Origin: Spiroplasma citri
Lineage (GTDB): Bacteria > Bacillota_I > Bacilli_A > Mycoplasmatales > Mycoplasmataceae
Direction: 5' to 3'
DNA length: 64,000 bases
Assembly: GCF_001886855.1 (NCBI RefSeq)
Contig: NZ_CP013197.1
Span: forward strand, 310,001-374,000
A program made the translations under genes and the position numbers. The notes below the pieces were generated by a model. It had not been told where the DNA came from and did no database searches. It saw only the letters and a list, made by a program, of their open reading frames with translations. Positions 4,246 to 21,174 of the stretch are shown one piece after another (the first letter of the stretch is position 1; each line of letters starts with the position of its first letter).

Positions 4246-4563
4246 ATGAACGAAGTTATTAGACAATTACGAATTCATAAAGGATTAACTCAACGTGAAT
4301 TAGCCAAAATGTCAGGGTTACAACAATCAACTATTTGTCTAATTGAAAAAGATTGTTCAAAAACAAGTTGAAATAAAATTTTAAAATTACTCGTTGCACT
4401 AAAATTAGATGTTAAAAAATTTATTGATAAATTATATACATACAATGAATATAAAGTATATGAGTTTTTATCATTAATTATTGATAATCCCAAAATTCGT
4501 AAAGAGCTTGATCAAAATCCACGATTATTAGCATTAAAAGTATTACGAATTTTTACTAATTAA
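4246..4563 (+). CDS. Small XRE-family DNA-binding protein
   Basis: A 105-residue protein whose first 60 residues form a Cro/CI-type helix-turn-helix (IRQLRIHKGLTQRELAKMSG then QQSTICLIEKD). The C-terminal half (about 65-105) is helical and unrecognised. It is monocistronic, with its own -10 box, RBS aaagga (4230-4235) and a terminator at 4622. It may be a chromosomal regulator or a phage-type repressor remnant. Neighbours do not show its target. Confidence 0.8.
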
Positions 4564-4621
4564 GAAAAAAGTTAGATAATTTTGTCTTACCATGCAGTTG
4601 AATTAACTATAAAAATAAAAT

Positions 4622-4645
4622 AAAGACCTATTAGGTCTTTTATCT
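4622..4645 (+). terminator. Rho-independent terminator
   Basis: aaagacct pairs with aggtcttt around a 3-nt loop, followed by a T-rich tail. Confidence 0.75.
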
Positions 4646-4722
4646 TTTAATAAACGGTTTAATTAAAAAATGATATAATAATACTACTTAATTATTAATT
4701 ATAGTAATGTGAGGAATAAAAA

Positions 4723-5211
4723 TTGATTTGAGATTATTATTTTATCTTTGATGGTAATGGTAAAGAACAAAATTTACGATGTATTTGTAAAACAGCTGCT
4801 GATGCAGAACAAGCATTAGAGGATTGTTATTTAGATAATAAATATAATGTAGATATTATTAAAGCAATTTCATTTTGTTTAATATTTACATTTGATAGTA
4901 CAACTGATAATTACGAATTAAACAAACAAGGAACAGAAAGTTTTTTTAAAAAATTATCAATTTGTCAACAATGTAATCGTGTTAAAAATAAATTAGATTG
5001 CCATCAACTTTGTTCAGAATGTGAAAGTGAATTAGTTGGTTTGGAAACTTTTCAATGTGATTTATGTAAAAAACACCGTCTTGTTCGTGATGACTTTAAT
5101 CGCGAATTATTTGGAAAATTATTAGTAAATAATAAAGAGTATATAATTTGTTTTAAATGTGCTGCACAAAATTTTCGAAAGGACGCAAAAACAGAAGGGA
5201 TGAAAAGATAG
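4723..5211 (+). CDS. Cysteine-rich putative zinc-binding protein A
   Basis: A 162-residue protein of unknown function. I chose the TTG start because gaggaa (4711-4716) lies six bases upstream and the frame opens with MIWDYYFIFDGNGKEQ. The first 80 residues look like a small alpha/beta domain. The second half carries four paired cysteines (CQQC, CSEC, CDLC, CFKC), the pattern of two zinc ribbons. Its stop overlaps the GTG start of the next gene, which has the same architecture, so the two form a co-translated paralogous pair. Confidence 0.7.
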
Positions 5212-12271: not shown

Positions 12272-12377
12272 TTTTTAAAGGAATATGGATTAATTTATTC
12301 CATCATATTAACAAATAAAAAAGATCCAAAAGAGAACTTAGTTATAATGAAAAGTTTAAAAAATTAGTTGATAAATA

Positions 12378-12407
12378 AAATGTATATATCATATACATTT
12401 TTTTAAT
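12378..12407 (+). terminator. Terminator after dprA
   Basis: A perfect 10-bp stem (aaatgtatat and atatacattt, 3-nt loop) followed by T7. Confidence 0.8.
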
Positions 12408-12440
12408 TAAATTACCTAATTAAAGATTTTACAAATTATC

Positions 12441-12469
12441 TTGCATTAATACTAAGAATAAGTTATAGT
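12441..12469 (+). promoter_or_regulatory. Promoter of the riboswitch-hpt-guaA unit
   Basis: TTGCAT (12441-12446) and TATAGT (12464-12469) with a 17-base spacer. The predicted start near 12476 lies just upstream of the purine riboswitch. Confidence 0.55.
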
Positions 12470-12490
12470 TAACGTGTGATAAAAAATAAA

Positions 12491-12560
12491 ATGCTGATAT
12501 ATGTTAGTATTATGGACTAATGTTTCTACATCTTACCGTCATTAAGATACTATAGGGCAT
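12491..12560 (+). ncRNA. Purine riboswitch, guanine type
   Basis: The aptamer core is readable by eye. P2 is ttagt/actaa with loop attatgg. The J2/3 strand is the invariant GTTTCTAC. P3 is atctt/aagat with loop accgtcatt, keeping the CC of the loop-loop contact. J3/1 is ACTATA. The specificity base in ACTAT is C, so guanine or hypoxanthine is expected rather than adenine. The U in TTTCTAC that is C in the Mesoplasma deoxyguanosine class is retained. J1/2 departs slightly from consensus. It precedes hpt and guaA, whose products make GMP. Confidence 0.88.
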
Positions 12561-12602
12561 AATTTTTTTTGTTTTATTTTCGGAATTTAACAAAAATAAT
12601 TT

Positions 12603-12652
12603 GCATAACCTATTTCGCATTAGCAATGATAGTTTATGCTTTTATTTTTTTA
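12603..12652 (+). terminator. Terminator hairpin of the riboswitch expression platform
   Basis: gcataacctat (12603-12613) pairs with atagtttatgc (12629-12639) with one mismatch, followed by an interrupted T-rich tract. It lies between the aptamer and hpt, so ligand-controlled attenuation is the likely mechanism. I could not see a clear antiterminator by hand. Confidence 0.6.
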
Positions 12653-12675
12653 TTTTGTAAAGGAGAGTAACAATT

Positions 12676-13200
12676 GTGCAAACAGACAAATTAGAATTAT
12701 ATCTATCAGAATATAAAATTCAAGATAAAATTAAGGATTATGCGGAAAAAATAAATAAGTTATACGCGGGGAAAAAGTTATATTGTATTGGTTTACTAAA
12801 TGGGGCATTATTTTTTATGAGTGATTTATTAAAACAACTTAAAATCCAAATTGTGATTGATACAATGAATATTTCAAGTTATATTGGGATCCAGTCTACA
12901 AATAAGATTACTATTCATAAGGATATTTCAAAAGATATTACTGGACAAGATGTTTTATTAATTGAAGATTTGATTGACACTGGTAAAACATTATCGGTTG
13001 TCATTGAACAAATTCAAGCAAAAAAACCAAATAGTTTACGAGTAGTTTGCTTAGCAGATAAGGTTGCTATGCATTCAAATTTTAATTATCCCTATGATGC
13101 ACTATTTACTGTTCCAAATGAGTTTATTGTTGGTTATGGTTTTGATTACAATGATCAATTTCGACAATTACCAAATGTATATATATGGAGAGGTGAATAA
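12676..13200 (+). CDS. hpt: Hypoxanthine(-guanine) phosphoribosyltransferase
   Basis: A 174-residue phosphoribosyltransferase turning hypoxanthine or guanine plus PRPP into IMP or GMP. The PRPP-binding motif is VLLIEDLIDTGKTL (about residues 94-107), and the C-terminal substrate loop is FIVGYGFDYNDQFRQLP. The GTG start follows a strong aaggagag (about 12659-12666). The stop abuts the guaA ATG. Expression is probably controlled by the purine riboswitch upstream. Confidence 0.93.
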   Translation: MQTDKLELYLSEYKIQDKIKDYAEKINKLYAGKKLYCIGLLNGALFFMSDLLKQLKIQIVIDTMNISSYIGIQSTNKITIHKDISKDITGQDVLLIEDLIDTGKTLSVVIEQIQAKKPNSLRVVCLADKVAMHSNFNYPYDALFTVPNEFIVGYGFDYNDQFRQLPNVYIWRGE

Positions 13201-14739
13201 ATGAAAACAGCAAATAAAATTATTATTTTAGATTTTGGGTCACAATATACTCAATTAATTGCCCGTCGAATTCGTCACTTAGAGGTCTATTGTGAAGTAT
13301 GACCGTATAATACAACATTAGAAAAAATTAAAACAACACCAATGAAAGGGATTATTTTATCAGGTGGCCCTGCTTCTGTTTATGCAGAAGATGCATTTCT
13401 AATTGATAAAAAATTATTTGAATTAGAAGTTCCTATTTTAGGAATTTGTTATGGGATGCAATTAATAAGTCATCTGCATGGAGGCACAGTACAACGAGCA
13501 ACAAAACAAGAATTTGGTTTTTCAGAATTAATTATTGATAATCAAGAAGATTTGTTTGCTAAGGTTCCTATTAAATCACAAGTATGAATGAGCCATGCTG
13601 ACCACATTGAAATAATGCCAACAGATTTTATTCAAATTGCTCATAGCGAAAATTCAATTAGTGCAATTAAACATTTAGAAAAGAAAATTTATGGTTTACA
13701 ATTTCACCCTGAAGTAACTCACACTTTAATTGGTGAACAATTATTAAGCAATTTTGTTTTTAATATTTGTGGTTGCGAACCAACATGAAAAATTACAGAG
13801 TTTATTTCAACAGCAACAACCGAAATTAAAGGTAAGGTTGGAAGCGATAATGTTGTTTTAGCATTATCAGGCGGTGTTGATTCTAGTGTTTGTGCAGTTT
13901 TATTACATAAAGCAATTGGGAAACAATTAACATGTATTTTTGTTGACACCGGATTGTTACGACAAGATAGTGGATGAAATGATTTACAAAAATTTCAAGA
14001 AAAATTTAAATTAAATATTATTAAAATTGCTGCTCAAGAAAGATTTTTAACTGCCTTAAAGGGAGTTACTAATCCAGAACAAAAACGAAAAATTATTGGA
14101 AATTTATTTATTGAGATTTTTAATGAAGAAGCGATAAAAATTAAAAATGTTAAATGATTAGGACAAGGAACAATTTATCCAGATGTTATTGAATCAATTT
14201 CCGTAAAGGGACCCTCAGCCACAATTAAATCTCATCATAATGTTGGGGGATTACCAAAAGATTTACCATTTCAATTAATTGAACCATTACGCGAATTGTT
14301 TAAAGACGAAGTTCGCCGAACTGGCGAAGCATTGGGAATTGATTCTAAATTTGTGTACAAGCATCCTTTTCCCGGGCCGGGATTAGCAGTCCGCATTATT
14401 GGTGAAATTACAGCAGAGAAAGTAGCCTTATTACAAGCAGCTGATCAAATTTTTATTGATGAATTATATCAAACAAATTTATATGATCAAGTTGCACAAG
14501 CATTTGTTGTTTTATTACCTGTTCAGTCGGTTGGTGTAATGGGCGATGTGCGAACATATGGATACACTGCTGTTGTGCGTAGTGTTGATACAACTGATTT
14601 TATGACGGCAAATTGAAGTCGTTTACCATTTGAATTATTGGAAAAAGTATCAACTCGAATTGTAAGCGAAGTGCATGGAATTAATCGAGTTACTTATGAT
14701 ATTACATCAAAACCACCAGGAACAATTGAATGAGAATAA
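13201..14739 (+). CDS. guaA: GMP synthase (glutamine-hydrolysing)
   Basis: A 512-residue enzyme converting XMP to GMP. The N-terminal class I glutamine amidotransferase domain has the nucleophile in [11 protein letters not shown] and the His-Glu pair in [11 protein letters not shown]. The ATP pyrophosphatase domain has the P-loop [16 protein letters not shown]. The C-terminal dimerisation domain has [12 protein letters not shown] and ends [11 protein letters not shown]. Several TGA codons are read as Trp. It directly follows hpt and should share its riboswitch. Confidence 0.96.
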
Positions 14740-17049: not shown

Positions 17050-17163
17050 CTTATTATTTCCCTATCTTTAAAAAATATTTTTAATATAATATTAATAATA
17101 CTTAATTTGATATTTGATAAGTTTTATTATTTTATCATAATTTGAAAGCGAGGATATCTAAAA

Positions 17164-18900
17164 ATGCAAAACTTTACTGAAATTAATAACAAAAAACGAA
17201 TTACTAGTTATGAACATTTAAATACAAAATATGATTTAAATTTTAGTGACTATAATTTTGGTTTTGACTGAGAAGTATTTAAAGACTTTGTTGGGGATAG
17301 TTATGCCCGTTATTTTACTTCACCAAGTTTTTTTAAGTTTGTTTCTGCGGGTCGTGGTACTAATAAAACATGAAATCATATAGCAGAAAAATTATTTTAT
17401 GCTTGTAATTTTACTGATGCTTCATCTAATATTTTACGAAGATATGCTAATACCCACGAAGATACTACTTTTGGAGATACAATTAACGTATGTAACTACT
17501 TATATGATAAATATGGTATTGATTTAGGACCCGACAATGAAAATGGCATTGTTTGACCTAAAAATGTTAAAGAAGGTGGAGAAATTGTTTTTCCTGGTGG
17601 TGTTCGTATTGCTTTTGCTGGTTATGCAAATGGTAATAAAATTATGGGTAAAGTTGGTAAAGGTAGTGGTATTATAACAGCGTGAACTGATGAAATGATA
17701 CATGCCGAAGAAAAAGAAATCTTAACTGATAAAGAATTAGATAAAAGATATAATAATTTAAGAGTTTCAATGTTTCGTTCTAAAAGTTTAAAAGTATCTT
17801 ATGAAAAATACACCGATGAAAATAATAATGAACAATATAATTTAGACAATCCTATTCCTATAAAAGAATTATCTTGGACATTTAAAGAATGAGATAATAT
17901 AACAAAACAATATACAACAATAACAACATATTTTCATAAAACATATTCTAATCAATTTACTTTTAATCCTTTTGATAAATACCACGTATTTTATGAAAAA
18001 TTTGTAACCCCATATTTACCTTTAAATGAAAGAATTAAAAATATTTTAAAAGAACATAACCAAATATACTCAGAAAATAAACAAGCATTTAACGGTTTAG
18101 GTGTTTTTAATTTACGATTAACAATGGGGGCTGTTTGAAGTAAAATACCTAATATCACTAAAAAACTTGTTTTAACCAACAAAGAAGAACGACCAGACTT
18201 ATTTGAACTTGAATATTACGGATTTGAATATAACGACAATGACCCCAGTATTTATGTTTTACGAAATTATCGTAAATATATTAAAGAATATAATTTAAAA
18301 GATTTTTATAATTCTAATACAAAACAGTATCAATTTGATAGTTATTCAATTGGTGTTGATTATGCTAATGGAAGCGAAGACCATACCGTATTTTTATTTA
18401 GTGGATATAAAATTAATGAAAATAACGAGTATGATAAATATTTAATTGAAGAAAATGTTATTACACCAAAAAATGCAATGAATTTAAATGAATTAGTAGA
18501 GCATTACGGACAATGAATAATTAATACATTTGATAAATTTGATGGTTTTGAATATGCCACATTTCATTATGATATTAATGCCCACGACTTTATGCAAAAA
18601 TTACAAGAAGATATTTACCCTTATTTAGGTTATAAGATTAAAATGTTTAAAGCCAAAAAACATCAAACATCACTTAATAAAGAAGCGAAAATAATTAACC
18701 GTGTAACATGAATACGAAAAATGTTTGTTCAAGGCAAGATATATGGCATATTAGATAATTTCCCATTTTTAGATAAATGTATTAGTGAATTAAGATTTAG
18801 CGATACCAAAACAAATATACCCGATAGTAAAATGTACCACGACCCATATGATGCTTTGTTTTATGGTTCTTATCCATATCGCTTTAAAATGGGAATATAA
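17164..18900 (+). CDS. Phage terminase large subunit
   Basis: A 578-residue protein with the two-domain layout of DNA-packaging terminases. The ATPase part has a deviant Walker A, FVSAGRGTNKTW (about residues 59-70), and an acidic Walker B-like site WTDEM (174-178). The C-terminal RNase H-like nuclease has three spaced acidic sites: D399 (SIGVDYANGSEDHT), D470 (HYDINAHDF) and D560/D563 (YHDPYDALFYG). Many TGA codons encode Trp. The ORF is intact although no other packaging or capsid gene is adjacent, so this is either a prophage remnant or a recently inserted piece. Confidence 0.85.
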
Positions 18901-18934: not shown

Positions 18935-18999
18935 AAAGTGAAGTTAAATTAAAAAAATTTATTTATTTAAAATAAATTTTTTTAATTTAACTTCACTTT
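18935..18999. terminator. 30-bp perfect inverted repeat after the terminase gene
   Basis: Arms 18935-18964 and 18970-18999 are perfectly complementary with a 5-nt loop, followed by a T-rich tract. It should act as a strong terminator. Its length and perfection are unusual and could also mark an insertion end or cruciform site. Confidence 0.75.
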
Positions 19000-19101
19000 C
19001 TTTTTTAATATATCTTTTATTTTATAATATTTAATAACACTATACATAGTTATTTTTTTTATTTTTTTTAATCATATAAAATTTCTTTCATTTAATGCGT
19101 T

Positions 19102-19224: not shown

Positions 19225-19230
19225 TATAAT
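19225..19230 (+). promoter_or_regulatory. -10 element ahead of the structured RNA candidate
   Basis: A perfect TATAAT ending five bases before the first base of the closing helix, so transcription would begin at or near the GG that opens the helix. No clear -35 box is visible. Confidence 0.5.
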
Positions 19231-19234
19231 TTTT

Positions 19235-19444
19235 GGCCGAGCGGTTGACTTTCTTAAATTGTTGTGATAAAATCACTTACAAGTTAAAAAAAGTTTTGAG
19301 GTTCTTTCAAACAAATTTGGGAACCTTTATAAAATTCTTCGCTTACCGCTTAGAATTTTTCCCAAGTACTTTGAAAAGCGCGGCAAAAGTTTTTTTAAAC
19401 TTTAAGTTATTTTTCACAAAATTCTAGAAAGTCTCCGCGAGGCC
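19235..19444 (+). ncRNA. Candidate structured RNA of about 210 nt in a phage block
   Basis: The ends pair over a long helix: ggccgagcgg (19235-19244) with ccgcgaggcc (19435-19444), including a tandem G.A step, then gactttc (19247-19253) with gaaagtc (19427-19433). The helix can continue through ttgtga (19262-19267) with tcacaa (19414-19419). Inside are aggttc/gaacct (19299-19326), aaaattct/agaatttt (19331-19359) and acttt/aaagt (19368-19390). The second loop carries cgctt and the third aagcg, so they could kiss. A TATAAT sits at the 5' edge. It may be a separate RNA or the leader of the lipoprotein gene at 19512. A TTG-started frame through it (64 codons) has no ribosome binding site and resembles no known protein. 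Confidence 0.6.
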
Positions 19445-19511
19445 AGATTGACCCTTTTCAGATATATATAATTGTGATTGTAAGAAAATTTTAACGAAAG
19501 GGATTATAATA

Positions 19512-20009
19512 ATGAAAAAAATATTAAGTTTATTAGGCACAATCACTCTAATTGGAACAAGTACAACAAGTTTAGTTGCTTGTAACACACAATGTAACGA
19601 AGATGAATTAGAACAATTAAAAATAGAAAACAAAATAAATACTACTAATCAAGAAATTAAAGACAATTTAGAATGAATAGCACCACAAGAAAAACCATTT
19701 ATTACTGTTGATAATAAGTGATATTTTGTTGTATGGCGAGGTGATAAAAATGATGATTGAAAAATTATTAAATTTAATAATAATGAAGTTAATATAATAA
19801 TTGATAATTTTAAAAATTATGAGTTAGAAAAATATGATTTACCTTTATTGGGTAATGATTTATATATTAAAAATAAATCAGGAATTAGATGTGAAAGTTG
19901 AAAAGATGATAAGAAAAATAATTATTTTAAAGCAGTTTATCGTTGAAATTTAGACACACAAGAACCTAATTTAATAGTTAATAAAGATGGTGTAATCCAA
20001 GTTAGTTAA
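19512..20009 (+). CDS. Phage-associated lipoprotein
   Basis: A 165-residue lipoprotein. The signal peptide MKKILSLLGTITLIGTSTTS ends in the lipobox SLVAC, with the lipidated Cys at residue 24. A short coiled stretch follows, then a domain opening with NKWYFVVWRGDKNDDW and closing with YFKAVYRWN. The same domain occurs in two more genes of this region. TGA encodes several of its many tryptophans. RBS gaaagg (19496-19501) is 10 bases upstream. Function is unknown; cell-surface display is expected. Confidence 0.75.
19692..19948 (+). repeat. Left arm of a 257-nt inverted repeat
   Basis: Nearly identical, in inverted orientation, to 20624-20880. I saw two base differences. It covers the Trp-rich domain of the lipoprotein gene. 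Confidence 0.8.
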
Positions 20010-20048
20010 ATATAAAAAGTCATTTTAAATAAATGACTTTTTATATTT
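20008..20048. terminator. Bidirectional terminator between convergent genes
   Basis: Perfect 18-bp arms (20008-20025 and 20031-20048) with a 5-nt loop and A- and T-rich flanks, placed so that it can end transcription from both sides. Confidence 0.8.
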
Positions 20049-21174
20049 CTAATGTAATTAATGATAGTTTTTCATTGTTCTTATTAAATAATTCTAAATT
20101 ATTAATATTAATTTGTTCTTTTTCTGTATAAATTGTAATATCATAATTTCCATAACCCCATATAGCAGATAATTCAATTTGATTTAAATTAAATAGTTTT
20201 TGATAATTATAAAAAGTTATTTTAATATTATCTACAACTAATGTTTTAGTCATACTTATTCAATCTGCTTTTGAATAAAGTAATCTATATCATTGTGAAA
20301 AATAATTTAAATAATTTTCTATTTTGTCATTAGAAACAATTAAATTAGTTAAGTATTTTCCATATTCTCCATCTGATAATTTAATTTCTGCTGGAATAAG
20401 TGACGGTATATTATTTGTTTCTAATTCGTTTGTTATAGATAACCAATTAAAATAATTTGCTTCTAATTGATAAATAGGATTTTCTGAAATATCTTGTCTT
20501 TTAACAGTTACTTTAATTTCATTGTCTTTATTGTTATTAATATTGATTTGTTGTTTTAAATTTCAATTTGTAATCTGTCCAGTTTTAGGGTCAATAATTG
20601 GTGTGTTGGGCTCACTGTTATTGTTTCAACGATAAACTGCTTTAAAATAATTATTTTTCGTATCATCTTTTCAACTTTCACATCTAATTCCTGATTTATT
20701 TTTAATATATAAATCATTACCCAATAAAGGTAAATCATATTTTTCTAACTCATAATTTTTAAAATTATCAATTATTATATTAACTTCATTATTATTAAAT
20801 TTAATAATTTTTCAATCATCATTTTTATCACCTCGCCATACAACAAAATATCACTTATTATTAACAGTAATAAATGGTTTATCATCTGCATAAACTTCCA
20901 TTCAATAATTTATCGGTTTAGGCGGAATAGGACCACTACTAGAAAAATTAAAATACATTGAATTTAATTCAACTTTGCAATCTTCAAATACTCAATATCC
21001 AGTTTTTTCTTCTACTGGATTAGAAACTAATTCTAAATAATAAGGAGTAATTAATTTAACATCATCATTACAGCCTTTATTAATGGCATACTTGCTATAT
21101 GTGTAATTTGATAACATATAGATAATTTGTTTAAATCTTTTGACAACCCTATCATTAATAAGGTACTTGTACAT
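20041..21174 (-). CDS. Phage-associated surface-type protein, probably 5'-truncated
   Basis: A 377-residue open frame. From residue 101 or so it repeats the lipoprotein domain (KPFITVNNKWYFVVWRGDKN to YFKAVYRWNNNSEPNTPI) almost unchanged, then continues with a C-terminal part not found in the smaller gene (NWNLKQQININNNKDNEIKV; FSQWYRLLYSKADWISM). It has no signal peptide; it begins MYKYLINDRVVKRFKQIIYM with no ribosome binding site near. The natural start was therefore probably replaced when the region rearranged. The stop lies in the shared terminator. Confidence 0.6.
20624..20880 (-). repeat. Right arm of a 257-nt inverted repeat
   Basis: Inverted near-copy of 19692-19948, in the same reading frame of the minus-strand gene. 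The two arms and the hairpin between them make the whole segment prone to inversion or fold-back. Confidence 0.8.

Follow-up and report, generated by a model that had tools for sequence, protein, structure and literature searches.

Several antisense RNAs of plasmids and prophages, namely ColE1 RNA I, CopA, FinP, the CI RNA of phage P4 and C4 of P1/P7, carry U-turn loops. GOLLD and ROOL are phage-linked structured RNAs of several hundred nt. The pRNA of phage phi29 is a further phage-linked structured RNA, encoded near DNA-packaging genes. To our knowledge, few small RNAs are known from Mollicutes, and our literature search found no description of a small RNA of Spiroplasma phages. Phage-like particles with about 19 kb of DNA have been reported for S. 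poulsonii (Ramirez et al. 2023, as cited in PMC12453411). Plasmids of S. citri carry conserved inverted repeats near gene pF, the IRR, which may serve as signals for replication or transfer according to Saillard et al. (2008, PMC2386487).

In this study, a stretch of 64,000 nucleotides of the S. citri chromosome (NZ_CP013197.1, positions 310,001 to 374,000; hereafter the window) was analysed around a conserved inverted-repeat element. We believe, with a probability of roughly 0.5, that this element is a previously undescribed small-RNA gene of Spiroplasma prophages that was taken up by some conjugative plasmids. That it is a conserved structured-RNA gene is highly probable, and a regulatory role of the antisense type is proposed tentatively. 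The element resembles the antisense RNAs named above in being short, in having its own predicted promoter and terminator, in its YUNR-like apical loop and in its location on plasmids and prophages. It differs from them in that neither a sequence relation nor a target was found, and in that it forms a long rod instead of short stem-loops. Compared with GOLLD and ROOL, the RNA candidate is much shorter (about 117 nt) and has no Rfam match. It shares with the phi29 pRNA a place near DNA-packaging genes; unlike the pRNA, it matches no Rfam family, is a rod without a junction, occurs on plasmids and is absent from the phages of a third family (f5) that have related terminases. Like the IRR, it is a conserved inverted repeat near pF on the same plasmids, but the two differ in position: the inverted repeats of the IRR were located upstream, at pSci2 12327-12485, one of them within pF itself, and the element is 3' of pF (13221-13441). 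The features of the locus are as follows.

17161-18897, plus strand: terminase-like gene upstream (579 aa, table 4), adjoining most chromosomal copies of the element
19232-19448, plus strand: whole conserved element, an imperfect inverted repeat (rod) of 217 nt, supported by its copies, alignment A1 and the covariance-model match
19235-19244, plus strand: 5' arm of the basal stem, GGCC-GA-GCGG, with the tandem G.A
19245-19250, plus strand: -35 box TTGACT of the embedded promoter
19265-19273, plus strand: extended -10 box TGATAAAAT, nearly invariant in 36 copies
19279-19396, plus strand: predicted small RNA of about 117 nt, matched exactly by the core model; 5' end at 19279-19281, 3' end in the U-tract
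19332-19358, plus strand: apical hairpin AAATTCT...AGAATTT with loop; the version in the diverged congener G010 is AAACCTCC...GGAGGTTT
19390-19396, plus strand: U7 tract closing the rod, terminator-like; T runs of 6-9 in 36 of 36 copies
19435-19444, plus strand: 3' arm of the basal stem, CCGC-GA-GGCC
19512-20009, plus strand: lipoprotein-like gene downstream, given as context and likely outside the RNA gene

The segment 19225-19510 folded at -87.4 kcal/mol, compared with -51.6 ± 5.1 kcal/mol for shuffled sequences (z = -7.0), and none of 200 shuffles folded as well. The results bore out the strong fold that an earlier note had read from the sequence, and also its closing helix with tandem G.A, which is almost invariant among the copies. 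The excess of G and C that it had described was found as well (28-31% at the element, 11-25% in most neighbouring 200-base windows). The three internal hairpins that it had drawn gave way to a consensus of one long rod with a single apical hairpin. A kissing interaction between its complementary loop 5-mers is unsupported: both CGCTT and AAGCG can be found, yet 12 of 36 copies differ on the AAGCG side and show no compensating change in the loop. The note had also named a structured, phage-linked RNA of unrecognised family, and indeed an Rfam search at gathering and relaxed thresholds returned no match for the element. A 64-codon frame crossing the segment, whose conservation would have spoken for a protein, is disrupted in most copies. 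Copy lengths differ by non-multiples of 3, and the copies lacked the third-position excess of coding sequence (31/45/47).

The 5' arm of the element holds a conserved predicted promoter (19245-19273; TTGAYT-N17-TGATAAAAT). The -35 box TTGAYT was matched in 33 of 36 copies, with a spacing of 16-17 in each of these, and a -10-like hexamer was present in all 36. Copies in another family (f9) retain TTGACT-N17-TATAAT at the equivalent place, and G010 has a similar promoter, TTGATT-N17-TGGTAAAAT, upstream and just outside the rod. A generic promoter scan also picked the embedded site, with its TG extension. Since the scan gave 3 sites in total, compared with 4.8 expected from shuffles, the argument for the promoter rests on its conservation. 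The earlier note had placed the promoter at a TATAAT at 19225, shared by just 5 of 41 copies, and had let a transcript of about 210 nt start at the closing helix; the start now predicted is near 19280 and the length about 117 nt. At the other end, the rod closes in the window with CAAAA-G-U7, and the copies of G010 and f9 have T6-T7 tracts. A simple terminator scan did not call this U-tract hairpin because its loop limit is 8. The predicted RNA measures 114-117 nt in all but one of the 36 copies, the exception having 105 nt; in the window (19279-19396) it folds at -30.0 kcal/mol (z = -3.3). Judged by sequence only, its own promoter and an intrinsic terminator would delimit a short RNA. An embedded promoter in the 5' arm, together with a core that ends in a hairpin and U6-9, makes a small RNA of about 117 nt the best reading. 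A promoter folded into the inverted repeat of its own RNA gene is unusual.

Covariance models were built for the whole element (R1) and for the core (R2). The whole-element model recovered the element in its own genome at G000:C1:329232-329448, and the S. citri genome contains 7 copies. The element was found in 10 of 14 genomes of the genus; besides S. citri, 9 of 13 species searched have it, and near-identical copies occur on S. citri plasmids. R1 and R2 detected diverged copies in G010, which belongs to the same genus and has a core 77% identical, and the core model matched three genomes of f9 (G067, G083 and G088), with 66% identity in G083. No match was obtained in the remaining genomes among 198 in the order or in 395 of the class. 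Searches of phage records and IMG/VR gave no phage record with the element or the terminase; one viral contig ends at the terminase. In two degenerate copies the fold is lost: they reach about -12 kcal/mol, compared with a mean of -26 kcal/mol. A diverged copy in G083 (C1:1558643-1558759, minus strand) has a G-rich insertion in the apical hairpin and still folds at -43.6 kcal/mol; it lies away from any terminase seen in that stretch.

Across the 36 close copies, pairing was retained in 94.7% of pair cells, and double changes were seen at 10 pairs. The diverged clades gave the stronger test, in which the observed substitutions were placed at random on the core and the surviving pairs were counted. 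With diverged sequences aligned to the core by hand, which may favour structure somewhat, G010 kept 33 of 37 core pairs (null 29.0 ± 0.9, P = 7e-4) and f9 kept 29 of 33 (null 20.9 ± 1.7; 0 of 20,000 randomisations as good). Double changes numbered 4 in G010, about 11 times the 0.36 expected (P = 5e-5), and 7 in f9, about 4 times the 1.6 expected. A tree-simulation covariation test, which was underpowered, gave 2 significant pairs in the close set (6-216 and 18-205) and 1 of 37 in the core set. The f9 core alone folded weakly better than shuffles (z = -1.5). The comparison shows a core whose predicted RNA structure is under selection across three clades. Changes through G.U and A.C over the whole rod were nearly equal in number (25 and 26 events), with no clear strand preference; in helix 2 they favour the plus strand (15 vs 4), and in the apical part the opposite holds (1 vs 15). 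The tandem GA was kept while its flanking pairs changed, from GGGC-GA-GCGG to CTGG-GA-GGGTT, which favours the plus strand as the folded strand. The GA/GA mismatch is retained on one strand in all clades. The basal stem is conserved yet lies outside the predicted transcript, which is a point against the small-RNA gene.

Most chromosomal copies lie 3' of the terminase-like gene on the same strand, at a distance of 10 to about 670 bases in the citri group. The terminase-like protein matched Terminase_3 weakly (E = 9.4e-5, just below the Pfam cut-off), and a PDB sequence search with the terminase profile gave no match. Almost none of the other phage genes tested matched a family. In G010 and f9, opposite-strand cargo genes lie between terminase and element, including a SocA/Panacea antitoxin gene. 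In the G010 phage this gene is at 4414-4860 of locus L149, and similar ORFs are found in f9 phages. In the window, a long inverted repeat (AAGTGAAGTTAAATTAAAAAAATTT...), read by eye, lies directly 3' of the terminase gene (18942-19001).

Some conjugative plasmids carry the element behind pF, mostly directly after a ribosome-binding site; the pF protein is annotated as replication-relaxation family in some records. Among 42 plasmid records with pF, about 8 have a complete RNA behind it. On two plasmids the copies are internally deleted. No terminase is annotated beside the plasmid copies, and the annotated gene that follows often has the opposite orientation. In pSci2, pF is split into two annotated ORFs (12596-13186) at the inverted repeat IR6 of the literature.

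Some alternative functions are tied to the flanking genes. A packaging RNA acting with the terminase, as in phi29, would fit an element that usually adjoins that gene on the same strand, in phages with terminases only 48% identical. It would also fit co-occurrence within the genus: in the order-level draw, the genus genomes with the terminase were those with the element, and five without the terminase also lacked a covariance-model match. However, the f5 phages, with terminases about 48% identical and equivalent phage blocks, have no detectable diverged copy behind the terminase, the plasmid copies sit behind pF with no terminase annotated, and the rod has no pRNA-like junction. Its presence on plasmids and absence from related f5 phages make an essential packaging RNA unlikely, and we regard this function as highly improbable. 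We know of no use of RNA by a terminase of this type. Hardly better is the case for a 5' leader belonging to the lipoprotein or small membrane-protein gene that follows. The distance to the start of that gene is indeed short, 63 nt in the window and about 33 nt in G010, but the core has its own promoter and U-tract. Moreover, the next annotated gene on plasmids is often on the opposite strand, f9 copies have a terminator-like hairpin before the gene, and f5 phages retain a small membrane-protein gene in this position while lacking the element. A bidirectional terminator between the terminase and convergent structural genes is improbable to a lesser degree. The A7-hairpin-U7 is terminator-like on both strands and the element does lie between convergent gene blocks, but it is too large and too conserved and has a promoter embedded in it; several copies are flanked by separate terminator-like hairpins, and f5 phages do without it. 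Of the three options in the earlier note, packaging RNA, lipoprotein leader and separate regulatory RNA, the last fits best.

Other explanations concern the element itself. It may be a mobile, MITE-like DNA palindrome or a DNA site, with the RNA fold a by-product of inverted-repeat ends. Its many copies in phages and plasmids, its long imperfect inverted repeat, the plasmid copies at a ribosome-binding site with two internally deleted, and the absence of an overall G.U/A.C asymmetry all agree with this. We consider it unlikely, given the one-strand GA/GA mismatch, core helices that covary across clades and a conserved promoter and U-tract. Placement is tied to terminase or pF, and reading the flanks by eye revealed no target-site duplication. 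Type I toxin-antitoxin modules are typically carried by plasmids and prophages, and the RNA might be the antitoxin to a small hydrophobic peptide encoded on the opposite strand. A minus-strand micro-ORF (MIIIVIILY and variants) with a Shine-Dalgarno-like sequence runs convergently into the element from its right flank in many of the copies of G005, G007, G008, G011 and G012 (e.g., L028 and L051). At 9 codons it is very short, though; it is absent from the S. citri copies, the window included, and from plasmid copies, and none was noted in the G010 or f9 sequences inspected. This pairing is quite improbable. It is also unlikely, though worth stating, that the full rod closed by the tandem-GA stem represents a new RNA family working as a ribonucleoprotein in phages and conjugative plasmids. 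Such an RNA might, for example, counter defence or bind the host polymerase, and the embedded promoter would yield a second, shorter product.

For the small-RNA gene that we prefer, RNA polymerase would start near 19280 from the promoter in the 5' arm (TTGACT-N17-TGATAAAAT) and stop at the U-tract (19390-19396), giving a rod-shaped RNA of about 117 nt. Read-through RNA or single-stranded DNA would be needed for the outer tandem-GA stem to form. The apical loops CUUAAC and CUAAAC, found in three clades, are of the U-turn type and agree with the YUNR motif. Through such a loop the RNA may act in trans as a regulator, most likely of mobile-element expression, i.e., lysogeny, superinfection or copy control. 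As the only candidate target, a 13-nt complement of the loop in the plasmid transfer gene Mbov_0396 (pSci2 and pSPh387) was considered and rejected. It is altered in most relatives and broken in pSKU226 and pSciBLHMB-1, both of which carry the RNA, and it is at least as variable as the sequence on either side. The phages concerned fill Spiroplasma genomes, including those of plant pathogens and male-killing symbionts. Being multi-copy, present in phages and plasmids and conserved over two bacterial families, the element offers a ready entry to phage gene control.

Two further observations were made in the window. The lipoprotein gene and the adjoining minus-strand gene (19512-21174) share a stretch of about 98 aa at 89% identity, an inverted local duplication. 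A purine riboswitch (Rfam RF00167) lies at 12475-12572, upstream of a phosphoribosyltransferase-like gene and guaA.
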